Assembly (NCBI RefSeq): GCF_029892485.1 | Contig: NZ_JARXVG010000001.1 | Location: forward strand, 682,001-746,000 | DNA from: Variovorax boronicumulans | GTDB lineage: Bacteria; Pseudomonadota; Gammaproteobacteria; Burkholderiales; Burkholderiaceae_C | Length of the DNA stretch: 64,000 nucleotides | Reading direction: 5' to 3' | Shown here: one piece after another, positions 52,453-64,000 of the stretch | Layout of the letters: each line of letters opens with the position of its first letter | Numbering within the stretch: position 1 is the stretch's first letter | The notes under the pieces: model-generated | Databases searched by the model: none | Told to the model about the DNA's origin: nothing | What the model saw: only the letters and a program-made list of their open reading frames with translations | Program-made: the position numbers and the translations under genes

Positions 52453-52529
52453 TGGTCGGTGTGAAAGGATTCGAACCTTCGACCCCTTGCACCCCATGCA
52501 AGTGCGCTACCAGGCTGCGCCACACACCG
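52453..52529 (-). tRNA. tRNA-Pro (GGG)
   Basis: A 77-nt gene including encoded CCA. On the minus strand the acceptor CGGTGTG pairs with CACACCG, followed by discriminator A and CCA. The anticodon stem CTTGC/GCAAG encloses ATGGGGT with anticodon GGG. The T-loop GGTTCGAATCC is canonical. Its 3' end faces the integrase-bearing region, as expected when a tRNA gene serves as an island attachment site, though no duplicated 3' fragment was found in the window. Confidence 0.95.
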
Positions 52530-52555: not shown

Positions 52556-53020
52556 TCAGTGTCCGACGGTCAGGAGCTCACGAATTTCAAAAAGCTCGCG
52601 CCGAAGGTGCAACAACTGCGACAGATCGACCGTGCGCGGTGCGGCCGGCTCGGGGCTGTCCTGCACGGCGGCATCGAATTCTTCCTGGTCGATCTCGATC
52701 GCCTCCATGCCTTCGAGCGGCACTTCGCCAGACTTGCGGCGATCGCGCTCGCCCTGCACGAGCTCCTGCAGCTTGTTGCGCGCACCGCTGATCGTGAAGC
52801 CCTGGTCGTAGAGCAGGTCGCGGATGCGGCGGATCATGAGCACCTCGTGGTGCTGGTAGTAGCGACGGTTGCCGCGGCGCTTCATGGGCCGCAGCTGCGT
52901 GAACTCTTGTTCCCAGTAACGCAGCACGTGCGGCTTGACGCCGCAGAGTTCGCCGACCTCACCGATGGTGAAGTAGCGTTTGACAGGAATCGGCGGGAGC
53001 GCTTTCTCCATTATTTCCAT
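52556..53020 (-). CDS. MerR-family regulator next to ihfA
   Basis: A 154-residue regulator. The N-terminal winged helix (RYFTIGEVGELCGVKPHVLR, then YWEQEFTQLRPMKRRGNRRY) is classical MerR, and the helical dimerisation region follows to about residue 85. The C-terminus is acidic with a Leu-rich helix (LLHLRRELFEIRELL), with no metal-binding Cys pattern, so a ligand is not evident. A MerR gene directly downstream of ihfA and upstream of tRNA-Pro is a conserved arrangement in Burkholderiales, though its targets are unknown. ATGs at 53020 and 53011 are both possible; the extra leftmost in-frame codon region is less likely. Confidence 0.85.
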   Translation of the reverse strand: MEIMEKALPPIPVKRYFTIGEVGELCGVKPHVLRYWEQEFTQLRPMKRRGNRRYYQHHEVLMIRRIRDLLYDQGFTISGARNKLQELVQGERDRRKSGEVPLEGMEAIEIDQEEFDAAVQDSPEPAAPRTVDLSQLLHLRRELFEIRELLTVGH

Positions 53021-53084
53021 TGAAATCAAGACGGTGCGCGGCAAACCTGAGAGATTACTCTACGCAACCGCCGAGCACCAAGCA

Positions 53085-53456
53085 CTATTCGGTGCCCAGG
53101 CTCCACTCGACTTCGGATGAGCCGCTCTGCTCGATGCTTCCGTGAATCTGTTCCTTGAGCTTGGCACTCGCATGGAACGTGGCGACGCGACGTTCGCCGA
53201 TCGGAATGGCTTCGCCGGTGCGCGGATTGCGGCCGGGCCGAGGCGCCTTCACGCGGATCTGGAAGTTGCCGAAGCCCGAGATCTTCACGTCCGTGCCTTC
53301 GATAAGACTGTTGGCCACGAGCTCGAAGAACGCCTCGACCATGTCCTTGGACTCGCGCTTGTTCAGGCCGATCTGCTCGAACAGCAGGTCGGCCAGGTGC
53401 GCCTTGGTAAGCGCCGGCGTTTCGAGGGCCTCGAGCGTGAATTCGGCGGCGTTCAT
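53085..53456 (-). CDS. ihfA: Integration host factor subunit alpha
   Basis: A 123-residue HU-family DNA-bending protein. ALTKAHLADLLFEQIGLNKR, then VEAFFELVANSLIEGTDVKI and FGNFQIRVKAPRPGRNPRTG are standard IHF-alpha text, with PRPGRNPRTGEAI including the Pro that intercalates into DNA. An extra 20 residues at the N-terminus and a short C-terminal tail are typical of Burkholderiales. The ATG at 53456 has GAGAGG 6 bp upstream; the ATG at 53462 overlaps the pheT stop. It is translated right after pheT, as in enterobacteria. IHF assists site-specific recombination, including many integrases, and transcription. Confidence 0.95.
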   Translation of the reverse strand: MNAAEFTLEALETPALTKAHLADLLFEQIGLNKRESKDMVEAFFELVANSLIEGTDVKISGFGNFQIRVKAPRPGRNPRTGEAIPIGERRVATFHASAKLKEQIHGSIEQSGSSEVEWSLGTE

Positions 53457-53458
53457 CT

Positions 53459-55900
53459 TCATCCTCTCAAGCGGCCGCCCAGCTTGGCGCCCAATTGTTC
53501 GACGATTGCACGGACTGCGGGCTCGACCTGCTCGTCGGTGAGGGTAGCGCTGTCGCTCTGGAAACTCAGGCGCACCGCCATGCTCTTCTCGCCCTGCGCC
53601 AGTGCGCCGGGTGCCGCGACGGCACCTTCGCGCAGCGGCTGCGGACGGTAGATGTCGAACAGCGTTGCATCGCGCAGCAAGCCCTGTGTGCCCGCGGTCG
53701 AGCGGATCGCTTGCATCAACGCGTCGTGGGTGACGGCCTCCGCGACCACGATGGCAATGTCTCGCTCGACGGCCTGGTGCTTGGGCACCGGCTGCGCCAC
53801 CGGCACGGGGCGCGCCGTGACTGCATCGAGGTCAAGTTCGAAGAGCACGGGTGCCTGCGCGAAGTCCCACTTCTGGCGCCAGCGCGGATGCAGTTCGCCG
53901 ACGAAGCCGACGGCCTTGCCGTCGACCGAGATGCGGGCCGAACGGCCGGGGTGCAATGCGGGATGCTCGGCCGGCTCGAAGCTCGGCACCAGCGGCGCGA
54001 GCAGCGCCTCGACATCGCCTTTGACGTCGTAGAAATCGATGCGTTGCGCCTTGCCGTCCCAGCGCGCTTCTTCAGCATCGCCCCAGGCAAGGCCTGCCAC
54101 GCGCATCGGCTGGTTCACGCCGCGTACCGTGCTGTCGGTGGTGACGACGCTGTCGTCACGCATGAACACGCGGCCCAGCTCGAACACGCGCACGCGCGGC
54201 GCCTTACGGTCGAGGTTGAACTTGAGCACCTGCAGCAGCGAGCCGAGCAGCGACGAACGCATCACGCTCATCTGGCTGGCGATGGGGTTCAGCAGCTTGA
54301 CGGGGTTGGCATTGCCGGCGAGGTCCTGTTCCCAGTGCGCCTCGACAAAGCTGAAGTTGATGGTTTCCTGGTAGCCCAGTGCCGCGATGCTGCGGCGCAC
54401 GGCAAAGCGGCTGCGCTGCGCTTCGGGCCGCACGCGGGCGGTGATGGGCGCGAGCGGTGCGGTGGTCGGCAGGTTGTTGAAGCCGATCAGGCGCGCGACT
54501 TCTTCGATCAGGTCTTCCTCGATCAGCAGGTCGAAGCGGTGCGGCGGCGGGGTCACGGTCAACGTGCCTTCGCCTTCGGTGATCGCAAAGCCGAGACGGC
54601 TCAGCGCATCGGCGCATTGCGCCTGTGTCAGCGGCATGCCGATCACACGCGCAGCACGCGCCACGCGCAGCGTGACAGGCACAGCTGCGGGCACATGCAG
54701 CGTCTGGTCGTCCATCTTGCCGGCTTCGCCGCCGCAGATTTCGATGATCAACTGCGTGATGCGCTCGATGATCTCGACGCTGCGGCTCGGGTCCACGCCG
54801 CGCTCGTAGCGGTGACCCGCATCGGTCGAGAAGTTGAAGCGGCGCGAACGGCCCTGCACGGCTTCGGGCCACCAGAACGCGGCCTCGACGTAGATGTTGC
54901 GGGTGTCGTCCGAGACGGACGTCGCATCGCCGCCCATGATGCCGGCCAGCGATTCGACTTCGCGGTCGTCGGCGATCACGCCGACCTTGTCGTCGACGGT
55001 GATCGTGGTGCCGTTCAGCAGCTTGAGCTGTTCGCCCGCCTTGCCCCAGCGCACCGTGAGGCCGCCATGAATCTTGTCGAGGTCGAAGATGTGGCTGGGC
55101 TGGCCGTACTCGAACATCACGTAGTTCGAGATGTCGACCAGCGGCGTCACGCTGCGCTGGCCGCAACGCGCGAGGCGCTCGACCATCCAGGCGGGCGTGG
55201 CGACGGTGGTGTTCACACCGCGCACGACGCGGCCGGAGAAGCGGCCGCAGAGCTCGGGCGCTTCGACCTTGACCGCCAGCACGTCGTTGAACGAAGCGGC
55301 CACGGGGGCGATGGCAGGCGTCTTGAGCGGCGTACCGGTGAGCGCGGCGAGTTCGCGTGCGACACCGTAGACGCTCAGGCCATGCGCGAGGTTGGGCGTG
55401 AGCTTGAGGGTCAGCAGAGCGTCGTCGAGCTTGAGCACATCGCGCACGTCGGCACCGATGGGCGCATCGGCGTCGAGCTCAAGCAGGCCGCCGTGGTCCT
55501 CGCTCAGTTGCAGTTCGCGCGCCGAGCACAGCATGCCTTCGCTTTCGACGCCGCGCAGCTTGCCGAGCTTGATGAGGAAAGGCTTGCCGTCTTCACCCGG
55601 CGGCAGTTCGGCGCCGACGAGTGCGCACGGCACCTTGATGCCGACGCGCGCATTGGGCGCGCCGCACACGATGTTGAGCAAGGCGCCCTGCCCCGCGTCG
55701 ACCTGGCACACACGCAGGCGATCGGCGTTCGGGTGTTGAGCGGCTTCCTTGATTTCGCCGACCACGATGCGCGTGAAAGGCGGCGCTACCGGTCGGCGCT
55801 CTTCGACCTCGAAGCCGCCCATGGTGAGCGTTTCGGCCAGTGTGGCGCTGTCGAGGGGCGGGTTGCAGAACTCGCGCAGCCAGGATTCCGGGAATTGCAT
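53459..55900 (-). CDS. pheT: Phenylalanyl-tRNA synthetase beta subunit
   Basis: An 813-residue class II synthetase subunit of normal length. An N-terminal EMAP-type tRNA-binding OB fold is at about 40-155 (DRLRVCQVDAGQGALLNIVC, GAPNARVGIKVPCALVGAEL). The B3/B4 editing domain (LVDISNYVMFEYGQPSHIFD) lies near 240-290, B5 near 415-480, and the ferredoxin-like anticodon-binding fold at the C-terminus (PKHQAVERDIAIVVAEAVTH, ending EQLGAKLGGRLRG). With PheS it charges tRNA-Phe and hydrolyses mischarged Tyr-tRNA-Phe in the cytoplasm. It follows pheS by 50 bp and abuts ihfA. Confidence 0.97.
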   Translation of the reverse strand: MQFPESWLREFCNPPLDSATLAETLTMGGFEVEERRPVAPPFTRIVVGEIKEAAQHPNADRLRVCQVDAGQGALLNIVCGAPNARVGIKVPCALVGAELPPGEDGKPFLIKLGKLRGVESEGMLCSARELQLSEDHGGLLELDADAPIGADVRDVLKLDDALLTLKLTPNLAHGLSVYGVARELAALTGTPLKTPAIAPVAASFNDVLAVKVEAPELCGRFSGRVVRGVNTTVATPAWMVERLARCGQRSVTPLVDISNYVMFEYGQPSHIFDLDKIHGGLTVRWGKAGEQLKLLNGTTITVDDKVGVIADDREVESLAGIMGGDATSVSDDTRNIYVEAAFWWPEAVQGRSRRFNFSTDAGHRYERGVDPSRSVEIIERITQLIIEICGGEAGKMDDQTLHVPAAVPVTLRVARAARVIGMPLTQAQCADALSRLGFAITEGEGTLTVTPPPHRFDLLIEEDLIEEVARLIGFNNLPTTAPLAPITARVRPEAQRSRFAVRRSIAALGYQETINFSFVEAHWEQDLAGNANPVKLLNPIASQMSVMRSSLLGSLLQVLKFNLDRKAPRVRVFELGRVFMRDDSVVTTDSTVRGVNQPMRVAGLAWGDAEEARWDGKAQRIDFYDVKGDVEALLAPLVPSFEPAEHPALHPGRSARISVDGKAVGFVGELHPRWRQKWDFAQAPVLFELDLDAVTARPVPVAQPVPKHQAVERDIAIVVAEAVTHDALMQAIRSTAGTQGLLRDATLFDIYRPQPLREGAVAAPGALAQGEKSMAVRLSFQSDSATLTDEQVEPAVRAIVEQLGAKLGGRLRG

Positions 55901-55950
55901 CTCTTCGATCTCGATCTGTTTTTCTGGTGTGGAAAGGGCGTGTCAGTGGA

Positions 55951-57027
55951 TCACTGGAACTGCGAGAGAAAACGCAGGTCGCCGTCGAAGAAGAGGCGCA
56001 GGTCGTTCACGCCGTAGCGCAGCATCGTGAGCCGGTCGGGGCCCATGCCGAAGGCGAAGCCGATGTAGCGCTCGGGGTCCAGCCCCATGTTTCGCACCAC
56101 GTTCGGATGCACCTGGCCCGAACCGGCCACCTCGAGCCAGCGGCCGGCCAGCGGGCCGCTCGCGAACTGGATGTCGATCTCGGCGCTGGGCTCGGTGAAC
56201 GGGAAGAAGCTCGGGCGGAAGCGCAGCACGAGGTCGCTGCGTTCGAAGAAGGTGCGGCAGAAGTCGGTGAAGACGACCTTCAGGTCCTTGAAGCTCACGT
56301 TCTCGCCGAGCCACAGGCCTTCGCACTGGTGGAACATGGGCGAGTGGGTGGCATCGCTGTCGACACGGTAGGTGCGGCCGGGGGCGATCACTCGGATCTC
56401 GGGCGCCTTCACGGTGCCGGTGGTGTCGGCGGCAGCAGCGGCGAATTCGGCCGCGTACTTCTTGATGTGCTGATGCGCATAGCGCACCTGCATCGGGCTG
56501 GTGTGCGGACGCAGGTTGTAGGGGATGCCGTCGTCGCCGTTGAGGTCGACGTAGAAGGTGTCCTGCATCGAGCGCGCAGGATGGTTCGGCGGGTTGTTGA
56601 GCGAGGTGAAGCTGTGCCAATCGCTCTCGATCTCGGGGCCGTCGGCCACGTCGAAGCCCATGCTCGAGAAGATGTCCTCGATGCGCTCCAGGGTGCGGCT
56701 CACGGGATGCAATCCACCGGGAATGCGGCGGCGGCCGGGCAGGCTCACGTCGAGCGCTTCGGCACGCAGTTGCAGCGAGAGTTCTTCGTCGGCCAGTTGC
56801 TGGCGGCGATCGGTCAGCGCGGACTCGATGGCCTGCTTGGCCACGTTGATCGCGGCGCCGCGGGACTTCTTCTCTTCGACACTCAGCGCGGCCATGCCCT
56901 TCATCAACTCGGTGATGCGGCCCGACTTGCCGAGGAACTGGGCCTTGGCGTTTTCGAGCTCGGCGGGCGTTTTCGCTTCGGCAAAGGCGGCGCCTGCGGT
57001 GGCTGCAAGGGAGTCCAACTCGTTCAT
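55951..57027 (-). CDS. pheS: Phenylalanyl-tRNA synthetase alpha subunit
   Basis: A 358-residue catalytic subunit starting at the ATG at 57027 ([12 protein letters not shown]); earlier in-frame codons lie in the leader. The N-terminal coiled coil ([20 protein letters not shown]) is followed by the class II core: motif 1 around [17 protein letters not shown], motif 2 in [20 protein letters not shown], and motif 3 in [18 protein letters not shown]. It binds ATP and Phe. A terminator-like hairpin at 57053-57087 precedes it, suggesting separate regulation of pheST within the thrS-ihfA operon. Confidence 0.97.
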
Positions 57028-57052
57028 GGCAACAAAAATCTTCGAGGGGAAA

Positions 57053-57087
57053 TAAAAAAGAGCTGGAGCCTTTTCAAGCGCCAGCCC
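57053..57087 (-). terminator. Terminator or attenuator between rplT and pheS
   Basis: On the minus strand GGGCTGG pairs with CCAGCTC (one G-U pair), followed by six T in TTTTTTATTT. It lies about 26 bp upstream of the pheS ATG. It could end the rplT transcript in part or act as an attenuator for pheST. I see no leader peptide in front of it as clear as the one before thrS. Confidence 0.6.
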
Positions 57088-57139
57088 TTGAGCCGTGGGC
57101 GCAGGAAGCTGCCCGAAGGCAGCACCCTGCTGTGCAGAA

Positions 57140-57499
57140 TCAAGCAGCCAGCTTGGCCTTGACCTGCTCCACGATGCCGGCAAAAGCGGCCTTGTCGTGC
57201 ACGGCGATGTCCGCAAGCATCTTGCGGTCGATCTCGATACCGGCCTTGCGGATGCCGTTGGCGAACTGGCTGTAGGTCAGGCCCAGTTCACGCGAGGCGG
57301 CGTTGATACGCGCGATCCACAGCTGACGGAACACGCGCTTCTTGGTACGGCGGTCACGGTAGGCGTATTGGCCTGCCTTCATCACCGCCTGTTTGGCGAC
57401 GCGGAAGACATTGCCACGGCGACCGCGGAAACCCTTGGCGAGTGCGAGAACTTTCTTGTGGCGGGCGCGAGCCGTTACACCACGTTTGACGCGAGGCAT
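57140..57499 (-). CDS. rplT: 50S ribosomal protein L20
   Basis: A 119-residue basic protein ([60 protein letters not shown]), typical L20 length. It binds 23S rRNA early in 50S assembly. In many bacteria L20 also represses its own infC-rpmI-rplT operon. It follows rpmI by 24 bp. Confidence 0.98.
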
Positions 57500-57523
57500 G
57501 TGTGTACTCCTTGTTCGTCTGAG

Positions 57524-57727
57524 TTAAATGCCACGGCCGGGCAGCATGGCGGCGACAGAAACCATGTTGGTCTCATGCACTGCGACTGCACCACGGAGGT
57601 GACGCTTGTTCTTGGTGGTCTTCTTCGTCAAGATGTGACGCTTGAAGGCTTGACCGCGCTTGACGGTGCCACCGGGACGAACGCGGAAACGTTTTTTCGC
57701 GCTGCTCTTGGTCTTCATTTTGGGCAT
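57524..57727 (-). CDS. rpmI: 50S ribosomal protein L35
   Basis: A 67-residue basic protein ([40 protein letters not shown]) with normal L35 sequence. It lies between infC and rplT in the conserved translation operon, with a 154-bp gap to infC. That gap may hold an L20-responsive leader, which I could not define. Confidence 0.98.
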
Positions 57728-57881
57728 GTGAATGCTCCTTTAGTTTGTGCTCGTGAGGCGCCGCGGATACTCCACGGACTTGTTGGCCCCGAGACACTTC
57801 TTTATCTCGCCCCTGCCTGCGCTTCTTTCAAAGCGCCGGCAACGGCGAAATCCCTTCAAAACCTCGTCTGCTGCAAAAGCC

Positions 57882-58496
57882 TCAGGCGGTTGCCGCGGGC
57901 GCCGTTGCCGGCGCAGCGTCTGCTGCCGGCTTGGGAGCACCGCCACCGGCCTTCTTGCGGCCCGGCGCGATCATCATGATCATCTGCCGGCCTTCCAGCT
58001 TCGGGAATTGCTCGACCATGATCAGGTCGCCCAGTTCGTCGCGGATGCGCTGCAAGAGTGCCAGACCGAGTTCTTGGTGCGTGATCTCGCGGCCGCGGAA
58101 GCGCAGCGTGATCTTGCATTTGTCGCCCTCTTCAAGAAAGCGCTTGATGTTGCGCATCTTGATGTTGTAGTCGCCGTCGTCGGTACCGGGCCGGAACTTG
58201 ATTTCCTTGACCTCGATGACCTTCTGCTTCGACTTCGCCTCGGCCGCTTTTTTCTGCTCGTGGTACTTGAACTTGCCGTACTCGATCAGGCGACATACCG
58301 GCGGATTGGCCGCCGCGACGACCTCCACCAGATCCACATCGGCCTCGCCAGCAAGGCGCAGGGCCTCCGAGAGACTCATAACACCCATTGGCTCGTTTTC
58401 CGGGCCTACAAGGCGGACTTCCGGGGCCATGATTTCCCGGTTCAGGCGGTGTTGGCGTTCCTCGCGGTGGCGGCGGTCGCGAAATGCAGTAGCGAT
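57882..58496 (-). CDS. infC: Translation initiation factor IF-3 (ATC start)
   Basis: A 204-residue protein if translation starts at the ATC at 58496. The internal ATG ([16 protein letters not shown]) would give 182 residues and cut off conserved basic sequence ([20 protein letters not shown]). AAGGA stands 8 bp before the ATC, and IF-3 genes classically use rare AUU/AUC starts so that IF-3 can repress itself. Domains are the N-domain ([20 protein letters not shown]), linker ([20 protein letters not shown]) and C-domain ([40 protein letters not shown]). The C-terminus has an Ala/Lys-rich tail typical of Burkholderiales. IF-3 monitors start-codon selection on the 30S subunit. Confidence 0.95.
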
Positions 58497-58606
58497 GGTC
58501 AGAATCCTTCAAAATTTGCTACAAAATCTGTAGCGAACGCCGGGCAGTCCTCGCGGACAAGCGGCACGACTTGGCTGGGAAACATATGGGGTGTTTCAGA
58601 GACAAA

Positions 58607-60514
58607 TCAACGCTTGTCGGCAACATCCTGGACGAGCCGTTGCACGAACGATTCGAGGGACATTGCTCCGAGGTCTTGATTGCCCCGGGCGCGCACTGCG
58701 ACGGCACCTGCTTCCTTCTCCTTGTCGCCCACGACGAGGATGTAAGGGAGCTTTTGCAACGAATGCTTCCGTATTTTATACGTAATCTTCTCGTTGTGCA
58801 GATCCAGCTGAACCCTAAGCCCTTGATTTTGCAGCGTTTTCGCAACTTGCGCAGCGTAATCGGCCTGCCCTTCGCTGATATTGAGCACTGCCACCTGCAC
58901 CGGAGCGAGCCATGCGGGCATCGCGCCGGAGTGGTGTTCGATCAGCATGCCAATGAAGCGCTCCAGGCTGCCCACGATGGCGCGATGCAGCATCACGGGG
59001 TGCGCGCGGCCGCTCGATTCCGTCACGTATTCACCGCCCAAGCGCTCGGCCGTGTTGAAGTCGACCTGCATCGTGCCGCACTGCCATTGGCGACCGATGG
59101 CGTCCCGCAGCGTGTATTCGATCTTCGGGCCGTAAAAGGCGCCATCGCCCGGCGAGATGATGAAGTCCACCCCCGAGCGGCGCAGCGATTCCATCACCGC
59201 ATGCTCGGCCTTGTCCCACAGCTCATCGGAGCCCACGCGGTTCTCGGGCCGCGTGGCGACCTTGTAGAGGATGTCCGTGAAGCCGAAGTCGGCATAGACC
59301 TTTTGCAACTGCTCCGTATAGGCGATGCATTCGTCGAGGATCTGGTCTTCCGTGCAGAAGATGTGACCGTCGTCCTGCGTGAAGCCGCGCACGCGCATGA
59401 TCCCGTGCAGCGCACCGCTGGGTTCGTTGCGGTGGCACTGGCCGAACTCTCCGTAGCGCAGCGGCAGATCGCGGTAGCTGCGCAGGTCGCTTTTGAAGAT
59501 CAGCACGTGGCCTGGGCAGTTCATCGGCTTCAGCGCGTACTCGCGCTTCTCCGACTCCGTCGTGAACATGTTGTCGCGATAGTTCTGCCAGTGGCCCGTT
59601 TTCTCCCACAGGCTCTTGTCCAGAATCTGCGGGCCCTTCACTTCCCAGTAGCCCGTGTCGCGGTAGATGCCGCGCATGTACTGCTCGACCTGCTGCCAGA
59701 TCGCCCAGCCCTTCGGATGCCAGAACACCACGCCCGGCGCCACTTCGTCGATGTGGAACAGGTCGAGTTCCTTGCCGAGCTTGCGGTGGTCGCGCTTCTC
59801 GGCTTCCTCGATGCGCTGGATGTACTGGTCGAGTTGCTTTTTGTCAGCCCAGGCCGTGCCGTAGATGCGCTGCAGTTGCTCGTTCTTGGCGTCGCCGCGC
59901 CAGTAGGCGCCGGCCAGCTTCGTGAGCTTGAAGACCTTCAGGAAACGCGTGTTCGGCACGTGCGGGCCGCGGCACATGTCGACGTATTCCTGGTGGTAGT
60001 AGAGGCCCATCGACTGCTCGTCTGGCATGTCCTCGACAAGACGGAGCTTGTAGTCCTCGCCGCGCGACTTGAACACCTCGATCACCTCGGCACGCGGCGT
60101 CATCTTCTTGACCACGTCGTAGTCCTGCGCAATCAGTTCGCGCATGCGCGCTTCGATCGCCGCCATGTCCTCGGGCGTGAACGGGCGCTCGTAGGAGATG
60201 TCGTAGTAGAAGCCTTCGTCGATCACCGGACCGATCACCATCTTCGCCGTCGGGTAGAGCTGCTTGACCGCATGACCGACCAGGTGGGCCGTGGAGTGGC
60301 GAATGATCTCGAGGCCCTCGTCATCCTTGGGCGTGATGATCTGGAGCTTGGCGTCGTGGTCGATGACGTCGCTGGCATCGACGAGCCGGCCGTCGACCTT
60401 GCCGGCCACCGTCATCTTGGCGAGGCCAGGGCCGATGGACTGGGCCACTTCGGCCACCGAAACCGGGCCAGGGAACTCGCGGCGCGAGTTGTCGGGGAGC
60501 GTGATCTGGATCAT
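58607..60514 (-). CDS. thrS: Threonyl-tRNA synthetase
   Basis: A 635-residue class II synthetase of normal length. The N-terminal TGS domain is at 1-60 ([20 protein letters not shown]). The editing domain (H-x3-[21 protein letters not shown]) comes next. The catalytic core has [20 protein letters not shown] (zinc Cys and His), [20 protein letters not shown] (motif 2) and [16 protein letters not shown] (motif 3). The anticodon domain closes the C-terminus ([20 protein letters not shown]). ATG start at 60514, with GAGG upstream. It is the first large gene of the thrS-ihfA operon. A leader peptide and attenuator-like hairpin stand directly upstream. Confidence 0.98.
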
Positions 60515-60531
60515 GTGAAACCTCGGGAGAA

Positions 60532-60600
60532 AAACAAAAAAGCGCGGTGAATGCCGCGCTTTGCTTGGTTGGGAGCTGGAAGAAACCAGCGAGCGCGGGC
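60532..60600 (-). promoter_or_regulatory. Candidate transcription attenuator upstream of thrS
   Basis: On the minus strand a 9-bp stem AAAGCGCGG / CCGCGCTTT with loop CATTCA ends in a T-run (TTTTTT), about 20 bp before the thrS ATG. A second segment, CCGCGCT at 60592-60598, follows the leader stop codon directly and is complementary to the 5' arm AGCGCGG, so it could form a competing antiterminator. A ribosome at the leader stop would cover this segment and allow termination; a ribosome stalled earlier would free it. Confidence 0.65.
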
Positions 60601-60674
60601 TACCGGCCCTTTCCTTCGATCGCTTCGAAGAAGAAAAAGCCGCTGAATCCTTGCGGAGTAGTTCGCGGTGTCAT
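60600..60674 (-). CDS. Thr/Phe-rich leader peptide of the thrS-pheST operon
   Basis: A 24-codon open frame. ATG at 60674, with AAAGG about 10 bp upstream, TAG at 60600-60602. The peptide begins MTPRTTPQG (three Thr in six codons) and contains GFFFFEA (four consecutive Phe codons, TTT TTC TTC TTC), then ends EGKGR. The downstream genes include thrS and pheST, whose products charge exactly these amino acids. That match, with the competing hairpins downstream, suggests a cis-acting leader for attenuation rather than a functional peptide. The overall mechanism is inferred. Confidence 0.6.
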
Positions 60675-60717
60675 AACCAAGGTGCCTTTCTCGCTCTTGT
60701 TGAGTGCAGAGGCGGCG

Positions 60718-60723
60718 ATTCTA
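60718..60723 (-). promoter_or_regulatory. Possible -10 element of the thrS operon
   Basis: TAGAAT on the minus strand, about 45 bp upstream of the leader ATG, matches five of six positions of the sigma-70 -10 box. No good -35 box is visible, so support is weak. Confidence 0.3.
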
Positions 60724-60787
60724 ACTTCTGCCCGCCGGGGCCGTGCCCCCTGCGTTCTCGAGCCCCTGCGCTTGGCCGGGCCGCCCA

Positions 60788-60814
60788 CAAAAAAGCCCGG
60801 CGCATGGCCGGGCT
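60788..60814 (-). terminator. Rho-independent terminator of aceA
   Basis: Arms AGCCCGGC and GCCGGGCT with a 5-nt loop. On the minus strand a T6 run follows. It lies about 30 bp beyond the aceA stop, separating aceA from the thrS leader. Confidence 0.85.
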
Positions 60815-60844
60815 CGAAAGTGTCCGCGAAAGGTGTGTCGCAGA

Positions 60845-62164
60845 TCAGTGGAACTGTTCTTCTTCGGTCGAGCCGGTCAGCGCGGTGACGCTGGACTTGC
60901 CGCCCTGGATCACGGTGGTCACATCGTCGAAGTAACCCGTGCCCACTTCCTGCTGGTGCGACACGAAGGTGTAGCCGCGGTCGCGCGCCGCGAATTCGGG
61001 CTCCTGCACCTTCTCGACATAGGCCGACATGCCGCGCGCCACATAGTCCTGCGCCAGGTCGAACATGTTGAACCACATCGAGTGGATGCCGGCCAGCGTG
61101 ATGAACTGGTACTTGTAGCCCATGGCACCCAGTTCCTTCTGGAACTTGGCGATGGTCGCGTCGTCGAGGTTCTTCTTCCAGTTGAACGATGGCGAGCAGT
61201 TGTAGGCCAGCATCTTGCCTGGGTGCACCTTGTGCACGGCTTCGGCGAACTTGCGGGCGAACTCGAGGTCGGGCGTGCCGGTTTCGCACCACACCAGGTC
61301 GGCGTAGTAGGCGTAGGCAACGGCGCGGCTGATGGCCTGGTCCATGCCCTTCCTGGTCTTGTAGAAGCCTTCGGCGGTGCGTTCACCGGTCAGGAAGGGC
61401 TTGTCGTTCTCGTCGTAGTCGCTGGTGATCAGGTCGGCAGCTTCCGCATCGGTGCGGGCGATCACGAGCGTCGGGGTACCGCAGACGTCGGCAGCCATGC
61501 GCGCTGCGATGAGCTTTTGCACCGCTTCGGTCGTGGGCACGAGCACCTTGCCGCCCATGTGGCCGCACTTCTTGACCGAAGCGAGTTGGTCTTCGAAGTG
61601 CACGCCGCCGGCGCCGGCCTTGATCATGGCCTTCATGAGTTCGAAGCCGTTCAGCACGCCGCCGAAGCCGGCTTCGGCGTCAGCCACGATGGGCGCGAAG
61701 TAGTCGGTGTAGCCCTTGTCGCCAGGGTTCACATTCTTGGACCACTGGATCTCGTCGGCGCGGCGGAAGGTGTTGTTGATGCGCTCGACCACGGTCGGCA
61801 CCGAGTCCACCGGGTACAGCGACTGGTCGGGGTACATCGAGGCGTAGCTGTTGTTGTCGGCGGCAACTTGCCAGCCCGACAGATAGATCGCCTTCACGCC
61901 GGCCTTGACCTGCTGCATCGCCTGGCCGCCAGTGAGCGCGCCGAGGCAGTTGACGTAGGGCTCGTTGTTCACGAGTTCCCAGAGCTTCTCGGCGCCGCGG
62001 CGGGCCAGCGTGTGCTCGATCGGGAAGGAGCCGCGAAGGCGCACGACGTCGGCGGCGCTGTAGCCGCGCTTGATGCCCTTCCAGCGCGGATTGGTGGCCC
62101 AGTCTTTTTCGAGGGCGGCAATCTGTTGTTCGCGGCTCAGTTGTTCTGTGAGGGTCTGGGGCAT
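60845..62164 (-). CDS. aceA: Isocitrate lyase
   Basis: A 439-residue protein starting at the ATG at 62164 ([14 protein letters not shown]) with GGAG 5 bp upstream. [18 protein letters not shown] near residue 200 carries the catalytic Cys signature [25 protein letters not shown] and [14 protein letters not shown] are conserved substrate-site regions. The length and text fit the shorter bacterial Icl class. It splits isocitrate to glyoxylate and succinate in the glyoxylate shunt, needed for growth on acetate or fatty acids. It is monocistronic with its own terminator. A palindrome about 150 bp upstream is a candidate operator. Confidence 0.97.
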
Positions 62165-62311
62165 GGTCACTCCGTGAGGTTGATTGAGGGTTGGGCGCTG
62201 CGGCCTTGGAATCAACTGTAATCGGATCGCAGACTCTTATGTCTTATAGAAGACATATTTTTCACTCAACAGAATCAATGGGTTACGCGAATATTTCTCA
62301 ATGCAAAATTA

Positions 62312-62332
62312 TTTTTCTCATATTGAGAAAAA
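62312..62332. promoter_or_regulatory. Perfect palindrome upstream of aceA (candidate operator)
   Basis: Arms TTTTTCTCA and TGAGAAAAA are separated by TAT. A further half site TTTCTCAAT stands about 20 bp away at 62293-62301. It is about 150 bp before the aceA ATG, within AT-rich DNA of the divergent-free gap to the 62372 gene. It may be the binding site of a glyoxylate-shunt regulator, or part of the terminator for the 62372 gene. Confidence 0.5.
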
Positions 62333-62371
62333 ATATTGCGCCGCAGCAGTCAAACATTCCACGATGTGCAA

Positions 62372-62785
62372 TCAATCTTTCGGTGGTGAAAACGCCGGTG
62401 ATTTCTTCGCGGCATGTGCGATCCAGTCGCCGTCCCCGATCACCGGATGGTCCCCAATCCGCGAAGGATGGATCTCGTAGACCAGGCAATCGAACCACCG
62501 CGCACCAACCGCCACGCGAACCTCGCGCTTGATGTACTCGCCCGAATCGTCCTCGGCCACTTCTTCCAGAAGATCGAGCGCCGCCTCGACCGCAGGCTCG
62601 ATGCGGTAGACCTCGCCCTTCACGCGCCCCGCGCCGCCGAGCACGATGCCCGGATAAGCGCCGAGGTCGTGCAGCGCCCCGGCAATGCTCGCTTCTCCGA
62701 CGAACACAGGCGCTGGCCGGAAGCGCGCGATGTCGTTGCGCCCATTCCGGCGCAGCGTGCCGTAGACAAAAACGTGGGGCATCAT
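62372..62785 (-). CDS. Gamma-glutamylcyclotransferase-like (AIG2/GGCT) family protein
   Basis: A 137-residue protein from the ATG at 62785 (MMPHVFVYGTLRRNGRN); another ATG follows directly. VFVYGTLRR is the family signature (YGSL/YGTL) and binds the gamma-glutamyl group. The candidate catalytic Glu lies in LDLLEEVAEDD, followed by KREVRVAVGARWFDCLVYE. The family cyclises gamma-glutamyl amines or peptides, but the substrate is not known here. It is a single gene ahead of aceA on the same strand. Confidence 0.85.
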   Translation of the reverse strand: MMPHVFVYGTLRRNGRNDIARFRPAPVFVGEASIAGALHDLGAYPGIVLGGAGRVKGEVYRIEPAVEAALDLLEEVAEDDSGEYIKREVRVAVGARWFDCLVYEIHPSRIGDHPVIGDGDWIAHAAKKSPAFSPPKD

Positions 62786-62825
62786 CGAATCCGCTTTCTT
62801 TCGCAACAACAAGAACTTCAGTCTA

Positions 62826-63752
62826 TTGAACTCCGCTGCCCCCGCATCCGGCCGCCTCGTCGCCTACGGCTGCCTGGCCTTGAGCATGTCGCTCGTCGGC
62901 GCCTACGTCGCCCTCTCCAAGCCCCTCGTTGCCGCGTTCCCGGTGCTGCTGCTCGCATGGCTGCGCTTCGGCATCGCCGCACTGGCCATGCCTCACTGGC
63001 TCAAGCGCGGCGCGGACGAACCGCCGATGACGGCACGCACGCGCTGGCTCGTCTTCCTCGAATCGTTCCTCGGCAACTTCCTGTTCTCGATCTGCATGCT
63101 GTACGGAGTGAGCCTGACGAGCGCGGTGTCGGCGGGCGTGATCATGGCGTCGATTCCCGCGGTGGTCGCGGTGGCGAGCTGGCTGTTCCTGCGCGAACGC
63201 ATCACGGTGCGCATCGGTCTGGCCATTGCATGCGCCGCGCTCGGCATCGGCCTGCTGGCCCTCAGCCCCGCGCATGCGCCTGCATCGCCCGATGCGGCCA
63301 GCTCATCGTCGATGCCGTGGCTCGGCAACCTGCTGGTGTTCTGTGCGGTGCTGTGCGAGACCGCCTATGCAGTGATCGGCAAGTCGCTCACCGGCCGGCT
63401 CGGCCCCAAGCGCATTGCGTCGCTGATCAACCTCTGGGGCTTCGTGCTCTCGACGCCCTTCGGCATCTGGTTCGCGTTGTCGTTCGACTTCGGCGCGGTG
63501 CACGGCGGCATCTGGGCCCTGCTCGCGGTCTACGCACTCGCCGCGAGCATCTGGACAGTGTGGCTCTGGATGACGGGCCTGCGCCATGTTCCCGCTGCGC
63601 AGGCCGGTGTTTTCGCAGTGATGCTGCCCGTCAGCGCGGCCCTCGTGGGCGTGCTCGTGCTCGGTGAAAACCTCTCTTCGCCACAGCTGCTCGCATTCGC
63701 GATTGCACTCGTGGGCGTGGTGCTTGCGACCTGGCCTGGGCGCCGAACGTGA
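62826..63752 (+). CDS. EamA/DMT-family transporter
   Basis: A 308-residue membrane protein with about ten hydrophobic helices arranged as two repeats (ALSMSLVGAYVALSKPLVAA, then VLLLAWLRFGIAALAMPHWL; VFAVMLPVSAALVGVLVLGE near the end), typical of EamA exporters. The first codon is a TTG with a weak ribosome-binding site; the internal ATG at 62886 would cut the first helix. The substrate is unknown (metabolite efflux is usual). It is divergent from the GGCT gene. Confidence 0.88.
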   Translation: MNSAAPASGRLVAYGCLALSMSLVGAYVALSKPLVAAFPVLLLAWLRFGIAALAMPHWLKRGADEPPMTARTRWLVFLESFLGNFLFSICMLYGVSLTSAVSAGVIMASIPAVVAVASWLFLRERITVRIGLAIACAALGIGLLALSPAHAPASPDAASSSSMPWLGNLLVFCAVLCETAYAVIGKSLTGRLGPKRIASLINLWGFVLSTPFGIWFALSFDFGAVHGGIWALLAVYALAASIWTVWLWMTGLRHVPAAQAGVFAVMLPVSAALVGVLVLGENLSSPQLLAFAIALVGVVLATWPGRRT

Positions 63753-63907
63753 AAAACGAGGCTTCTCCCCTCTGAAAAAACAACAACTCCCAATGAAAAA
63801 ACCGTTTTTTCCCTTGGAAACGCGTTTTTTCTCCTTTAGCATCCGCATTGCCACTGGAGACGCAAGTTTTTCATTGGTGAATGTTCAACCAAAAAAGGAA
63901 ATCAACC

Positions 63908-64000
63908 ATGGCAACTGCAAAGAAGGCTCCGGCCAAGAAAGCTCCGGCAAAGAAGGCCGCCCCCGCAAAGAAGGCTGCGGCTCCTGCGAAGAAGGCTGCA
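63908..64000 (+). CDS. Histone H1-like Lys/Ala/Pro-rich DNA-binding protein (partial)
   Basis: The first 31 codons of a protein cut by the window edge. AAAGGA precedes the ATG. The text is MATAKKAPAKKAPAKKAAPA with further AKKA repeats, as in the H1-like nucleoid proteins of Burkholderiales. The DNA upstream has two T6 tracts and A-runs of possible regulatory or bendable nature. The end and length are unknown. Confidence 0.85.
   Translation, partial: MATAKKAPAKKAPAKKAAPAKKAAAPAKKAA

Follow-up and report, generated by a model that had tools for sequence, protein, structure and literature searches.

We detected a leader gene and putative attenuator element between aceA and thrS on the minus strand of a 64,000-nt stretch of the Variovorax boronicumulans genome (hereafter the window). 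The element is quite probably a ribosome-mediated transcription attenuator, which would sense threonyl-tRNA and control thrS together with the downstream genes as far as read-through goes. The leader, its Thr codons, the conservation, a −10-like element, the possible pairings and a predicted terminator can all be read from the DNA itself. A putative leader peptide and attenuator had been proposed before thrS by a sequence-only reading, and the proposal is supported by wide conservation, by an in-frame Thr surplus and by pairing alternatives that exceed those of shuffled sequences when 129 leaders are taken together.

The isocitrate lyase gene upstream of the element (aceA, named by NCBIfam) has a frame that ends at 60845. 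From there towards thrS, all on the minus strand, a −10-like promoter element TAGAAT (60718–60723) and a conserved, purine-rich Shine-Dalgarno block AAGAGCGAGAAAGGCA (60683–60698), which precedes most leaders and is missing before some, are followed by a near-invariant 18-mer GGTTATGACACCGCGAAC (60661–60678) around the leader start codon. The leader peptide gene (60600–60674) comprises 24 codons and TAG, its peptide being predicted from the frame and its conservation. Segment 1, CCGCGAACTAC (60658–60668), lies in codons 3–6 and has segment 2 as its partner, as assessed by comparing the duplex with shuffles. According to pairing computations, segment 2, GGTAGCCCGCGCT (60592–60604), which has the stop codon inside it, could pair with either segment 1 or segment 3. 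The Phe codon run forms the 5′ arm of an inner hairpin (60604–60642), a predicted apical extension of the 1:2 hairpin, and a small hairpin GCTGGTTTCTTCCAGC (60575–60590) appears between segments 2 and 3 in the minimum-energy fold, similar sequence being seen by eye in several members of the genus. Hairpin prediction identifies segment 3, AAAGCGCGG (60554–60562), as the terminator 5′ arm and segment 4, CCGCGCTTT (60530–60547), as the 3′ arm with a T-rich tail. The predicted hairpin occupies 60562–60539 and the whole terminator 60562–60530, ahead of the thrS start at 60514. Directly 3′ of the leader stop is CCCGCGCT, and CCGCGCT matches, as an exact reverse complement, the AGCGCGG of the terminator 5′ arm.

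The threonyl-tRNA synthetase gene thrS (58607–60514, minus strand; NCBIfam TIGR00418, 725 bits) is followed on the same strand by infC, rpmI, rplT, pheS, pheT and ihfA (53085–58430), which were assigned by NCBIfam equivalogs and whose starts come from a mechanical, uncurated ORF list. The NCBIfam models place ThrS, IF-3, L35, L20, PheS, PheT and IHF-alpha in this order, and a single transcript across them is putative. On re-reading the sequence, the leader frame, its coordinates, the CCGCGCT/AGCGCGG pairing and the T-run hairpin before thrS all proved to have been described correctly in the sequence-only reading, and the models confirmed its gene order thrS-infC-rpmI-rplT-pheST-ihfA. Elsewhere in the window, the interval between aceA and the leader promoter contains a strong terminator-like hairpin (60793–60815, minus strand), and a tRNA-Pro(GGG) gene is found downstream of ihfA (52453–52529, minus strand). 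An ORF between ihfA and this tRNA gene (52556–53044) had no NCBIfam match at 1e-10. A plus-strand frame (63881–64000) that starts with MATAKKAPAKKAPAKKAAPAKKAAAP and runs off the window end looks histone-H1-like by eye, being rich in Lys, Ala and Pro.

Conservation of the leader was assessed in 150 genomes drawn from the GTDB family of the window. ThrS was detected in 145, and the DNA before thrS was read in each of these, with window-genus members G001–G018 left out of the 18-mer count. The 18-mer, which encodes the core M-T-P-R-T, was found exactly in 109 of the 145 genomes, and 12 further genomes have it with one or two mismatches (121/145), placing the leader ATG 113–204 nt before thrS; the best match in 100 shuffled upstream stretches had six mismatches. 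It is because of this conservation, and not because of the window duplexes alone, that the locus exceeds chance. No leader match within two mismatches was present before thrS in the remaining 24 of 145 genomes, two of which have shortened upstream sequence. A covariance model, built from RNAalifold on 24 leaders with six base pairs only and used solely for searching, gave matches in 123 of 150 genomes at E ≤ 0.1, some of them weak and not before thrS. One family genome (L021; G095) has a terminator-like hairpin before thrS and no recognisable leader start motif in the 205 nt upstream.

The N-terminal 150 amino acids of ThrS (60065–60514 in the window) divide the same genomes into 15, including the window, at 81–100% identity and another 130 at ~56–66%, with none between. 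The leader is present in both identity groups, to which replacement of thrS under a retained leader would fit. In a genome of another family (G282), ThrS matched twice, at 72% and 58%.

Beyond the family, an order-level scan at up to two mismatches found the pattern in 54 of 250 genomes, many of the matches being away from thrS. Those directly before thrS came from the sampled families f1, f3, f8, f10, f23, f35, f39 and f47, which places the leader before thrS in seven further families of the order beyond the window's own. About 50 families were sampled at this level (with the DNA upstream of thrS read for part of them), and most gave no pattern at up to two mismatches. In a class-level scan of 185 genomes that allowed no more than one mismatch, the pattern turned up in both genomes from the order and in a single genome from outside it (one mismatch). 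When the 18-mer was shifted by one base and searched in contigs that represented each species by a single genome, 115 of the 119 exact matches listed stood 114–306 nt before thrS; of the other matches listed, three are on stretches that end 43–347 nt past the match, and for the fourth (L237) no thrS lies within 1,510 nt. Variovorax, Acidovorax, Polaromonas, Massilia, Janthinobacterium, Cupriavidus and Roseateles are among the organisms in the matches listed.

The leader of the window is a short frame with putative Thr regulatory codons, as expected of an attenuator: codons 2, 5 and 6 are ACA, ACT and ACT, and Phe codons occupy positions 10 and 13–16. Codon usage was compared over 130 leaders, one per genome, with the window genus counted once, nine leaders from other families and some genera included twice. 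A duplicate of the window (L011) was dropped, as were the window-genus members other than the window itself, from both the codon counts and the duplex tests. Codon 2 is ACA in 128 of the 130 leaders, codon 3 is CCG in all 130, codon 4 is CGA in 122 and codon 5 is ACT in 116; Thr is found at codon 6 in 99 leaders and at codon 7 in 65. From codon 7 onward the leaders contain 187 in-frame Thr codons, compared with 18 and 24 in the two other frames (1051 codons, 130 leaders). In the f35, f39 and f47 leaders, as in some others, Thr is confined, or nearly so, to codons 2 and 5. Glu is likewise enriched in frame (60 against 10 and 27 out of frame, 29 of them at codon 8), possibly through shared ancestry. 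ACA and ACT are rare in the window: of the 139 Thr codons counted across eight of its genes, they account for 4.3% and 0.7%, respectively. According to a passage in PMC1183508, regulatory codons are not defined by being rare alone, as in the thr leader of E. coli, where ACC occurs eight times.

Among those of the 121 genomes with a leader match that share the most frequent residue at a given position, the most frequent codon reaches 99, 100, 95 and 88% at leader codons 2–5, compared with 48% at leader codon 6 and 41–77% at thrS codons 2–10 of the same genomes. Judged by these shares, the constraint at leader codons 2–5 is on the nucleotides, beyond the coding need.

Transcription would start ~35–40 nt before the leader gene, as inferred from the −10-like element. 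In 134 leaders (including the window genus), 100 TAxxxT sites scoring at least 5/6 fell 40–60 nt upstream of the leader ATG, where mononucleotide shuffles averaged ~3, and 106 of the 134 leaders have such a site starting at −75 to −35. A start of transcription downstream of the leader, which would have spoken against the sequence-only reading, is unlikely given the −10-like element 40–60 nt before the leader start. Six Cupriavidus loci (L254, L262, L267, L278, L329 and L331) have a tRNA-Val (GAC) gene before the leader, which suggests a shared tRNA-leader-thrS transcript in this genus. The same tRNA gene stands before thrS, with no leader recognised, in four loci of other families (L201, L204, L216 and L221). 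An excerpt from the start table of C. metallidurans assigns one transcription start to Rmet_R0015/thrS, and the −10 sequence given there resembles that before tRNA-Val in the six Cupriavidus loci (PMC9045368). The same excerpt also has starts for infC, rpmI and ihfA (PMC9045368), and the attenuator would therefore not be the sole entry to the operon in C. metallidurans.

Once transcribed, the leader would be initiated by a ribosome that translates M-T-P-R-T-T. With charged Thr-tRNA available, the ribosome would reach the stop codon and mask segment 2, the 3:4 terminator would form and transcription would end before thrS. If no ribosome were loaded, segment 1 could pair with segment 2 and leave the terminator likewise free. 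Where Thr-tRNA is scarce, the ribosome would stall at codon 2, 5 or 6 and cover segment 1, and segment 2 would then pair with the emerging segment 3, allowing the polymerase to proceed into thrS. Translation, stalling, antitermination and the physiological response are the parts of this scheme that we infer.

The scheme predicts mutually exclusive pairings 1:2, 2:3 and 3:4, of which the alternative duplexes 1:2 and 2:3 are supported over the 129 leaders together and do not reach the 0.05 level for the window alone. The mean 1:2 duplex energy was −11.5 kcal/mol against −9.4 kcal/mol in dinucleotide shuffles (Wilcoxon p 3e-15, 129 leaders), and the mean 2:3 energy was −13.9 against −11.4 kcal/mol (Wilcoxon p 9e-18, 129 leaders). 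Individual leaders reached p < 0.05 in 35 of 129 cases for 1:2 and 31 of 129 for 2:3; the corresponding values for the window against shuffles were 0.154 and 0.179. As a whole, the leader of the window folds better than 200 of 200 shuffles (z −4.2). Duplex scores are weak in some leaders whose frame runs over segment 2 (e.g., G032, G035 and G056), and we think that this overrun is the cause. In other families, changes on both sides of 1:2 (codon 4 CTG, or CCGCCGAC) were seen by eye and carry no weight as a covariation test, since segment 1 hardly varies. A terminator-like hairpin, predicted to act as an intrinsic terminator and judged by eye, was reported by the script after all 145 leaders, one of which (G051) it had mis-assigned. 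G051 was dropped by hand from the duplex tests and from the ribosome-folding model.

In the folding model, the leader was taken as far as the terminator loop and folded with a ribosome of 28 nt set at chosen codons. The modelled 2:3 probability in the window was 0.70 for the free leader, 0.99, 0.99 and 1.00 with the ribosome at Thr2, Thr5 and Thr6, and 0.08 with the ribosome at the stop. The means for the 16 window-genus leaders were 0.51 (free), 0.97, 0.99 and 0.92 (Thr2, Thr5 and Thr6) and 0.19 (stop), and those for 128 leaders of other genera were 0.40, 0.78, 0.66, 0.64 and 0.34 in the same order. A ribosome modelled at Thr5 gave more 2:3 pairing than both the free and the at-stop state in all 16 window-genus leaders and in 105 of the 128 others; the expected order was not given by the model in the other 23 of 128. 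Without a ribosome the modelled off state is leaky: nine of the 16 window-genus leaders and 50 of the 128 others have a 2:3 probability above 0.5. When region 4 was added, the terminator probability was at least 0.84 at every ribosome position in eight of nine leaders profiled and fell as low as 0.10 in the ninth (G101). The complete terminator dominates in those eight, and the switch would therefore have to be kinetic. Direct pairing of segment 1 with the terminator 5′ arm was dismissed, its mean probability never rising above 0.12 in the states modelled. As a model of the switch, these folds are convincing only in part.

The sequence-only reading had envisaged control by charged tRNA-Thr and/or tRNA-Phe. 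Comparison across Burkholderiales bore out the frame, the Thr codons and the pairings, and the in-frame Thr excess argues for the Thr half of this claim; the Phe half is not supported in general, since no Phe codons are conserved. Outside the window genus FFF occurs in none of the 129 leaders and FF in five. The leader frame has 65 Phe codons and the two other frames 49 and 46 (1051 codons, 130 leaders), and the presence of Phe at codon 10 in 25 of at most 130 leaders points to a possible slight in-frame preference. Mononucleotide shuffling gives a Phe z of 10.8 but breaks T runs, and the other reading frames were preferred as the Phe control for this reason. On the frame comparison and the genus comparison, Phe was rejected as a family-wide conserved signal, although Phe sensing in the window's own strain is conceivable. 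The predicted attenuator is thus not of the pheM (Phe) type, because conserved Phe regulatory codons of the pheM/pheL kind were looked for and were absent.

Within the window genus, 20 genomes were searched and 16 leaders read; G005, G006 and G008 matched and were left out, and G012 (62% complete) gave no match. FFF is present in 11 of the 16 leaders, and the other five read LFL, LFR, LFP or SIF at this place. A hairpin of −14 to −21 kcal/mol with the Phe run as its 5′ arm forms in 21 of 22 distinct leaders of Variovorax and close relatives, in which the Phe codons after codon 6 range from five to one, and it is more stable than synonymous recodings (p < 0.05) in 17 of the 22. L268 departs from this pattern: it lacks any such Phe codon and its stop comes earlier, within the stem, with GGCCCT/AGGGCC arms visible by eye across the stop. 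As relatives retain the hairpin while Phe codons are lost, the Phe run is best read as serving mainly as a hairpin arm in the RNA, the hairpin being an extension of the 1:2 pairing in Variovorax.

This reading has to be weighed against a dual Thr/Phe attenuator in Variovorax, in which stalling at the Phe run would also break the inner hairpin and free segment 2, and the operon would answer to either tRNA. The in-frame FFF of most window-genus leaders, the small in-frame surplus of Phe and the position of pheS and pheT downstream in the same gene row are all consistent with such a second input, yet the five genus members that lack FFF keep the hairpin, and FFF is absent from the 129 leaders outside the genus. 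The folding model speaks on both sides: a ribosome at Phe13 or Phe14 of the window raises 2:3 to 0.95 and 0.96 from 0.70 in the free leader, whereas at Phe15 and Phe16 the value drops to 0.63 and 0.46. In another FFF leader (G009), a ribosome at Phe13–15 reduces 2:3 to 0.06–0.15 from 0.39, and in two more (G152 and G014) 2:3 is ~0.9–1.0 with the ribosome at Phe but already 0.98–0.99 without it. Modelled stalling at Phe thus yields no consistent antitermination, being favourable at two of the four run codons in the window, and we regard dual control as unlikely.

The attenuator model does not require GGTTATGACACC, which lies before and inside the start, to be near-invariant; the pairings seem not to demand it, because segment 2 varies. 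Binding of ThrRS or another operon protein to the conserved leader start, with repression of its own operon and the Thr codons secondary, would account for the nucleotide-level conservation of leader codons 2–5 beyond that of thrS codons, as for a binding site, and for those leaders that carry two Thr codons only. E. coli threonyl-tRNA synthetase is described as a self-regulating RNA-binding protein in a passage of PMC2965389. Such binding would have no need for the in-frame Thr excess, the rare Thr codons or a terminator with an alternative partner, and as a replacement for Thr-tRNA sensing we judge it improbable. It is equally doubtful, though conceivable alongside the attenuator, that GGTTATGACACCGCGAAC serves as a second sensor on it, bound for example by ThrRS, an RNA or the initiation complex, which would combine Thr-tRNA charging with initiation capacity. 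GGUUAUG (60672–60678 of the window; L351) has its complement, CAUAACC, in an anticodon arm that resembles that of initiator tRNA and lies in the window's genome, an arm identified by one match, with one mismatch, to the search pattern; leader initiation might so be tuned to initiator tRNA and IF3, the latter encoded by infC in the operon. A constitutive leader gene that aids initiation or re-initiation at thrS, does not sense amino acids and is followed by a weak terminator of the ordinary kind, draws on the proposal that leader genes raise translation by re-initiation (an excerpt of PMC4833913). The leader start, however, lies more than a hundred nucleotides before thrS with a terminator-like hairpin between, and the Thr excess would be left unaccounted for, which makes this explanation highly improbable. 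A Thr-tRNA-sensing attenuator remains the reading we prefer.

No Rfam 15 family reached its gathering score at the locus or in 20 upstream stretches of relatives, and this includes RF00506 (Thr_leader) in these 20 stretches, 19 of which hold the leader. RF00506 was also absent among the nine matches up to E 10 in 58000–64000 of the window. PrrB_RsmZ, BSnc120, anti-hemB and SorX matches near the locus were dismissed, lying below the Rfam gathering scores. No earlier description was found in the open-licence literature (that is, without most subscription papers), and none of the open-licence papers listed as containing MTPRT concerns this leader by title.

The enterobacterial thrL (RF00506) shares with the element a Thr-rich leader peptide, a terminator and the proposed stalling logic. 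It controls biosynthesis through thrABC, not thrS, and the element differs from it in having few Thr codons at fixed places, a near-invariant start region and no RF00506 match. The pheM-pheST attenuator of enterobacteria likewise stands before an aminoacyl-tRNA synthetase operon, but pheM carries Phe codons and lies before pheS, whereas here Thr codons are found before thrS at the operon head. The same gene is controlled in its 5′ region by the E. coli thrS operator, where ThrRS represses translation through protein-RNA tRNA mimicry, in contrast to the leader peptide and terminator seen here. The T-box of Firmicutes thrS also couples tRNA charging to thrS by antitermination; unlike the element, it reads uncharged tRNA directly and has no leader peptide. 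Attenuators at pheST in gamma-proteobacteria are named in a passage of PMC1262725.

The Rfam attenuator motifs then available were limited to His, Leu, Thr and Trp and were possibly gamma-proteobacterial in origin, according to an excerpt from PMC3766115. The element would add a beta-proteobacterial attenuator to motifs of this type. It also illustrates that an RNA hairpin can mimic regulatory codons, given that the Phe run looks like a sensor and is more readily accounted for by a stem. The most interesting part of the element is how strongly its leader start region is conserved, a puzzle that can be tested. If the proposed mechanism is true, a large beta-proteobacterial family and parts of at least seven others would use charging-sensitive control at a position where E. 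coli uses protein autoregulation, and the products of the operon so controlled would include two tRNA synthetases, IF3 and two ribosomal proteins.
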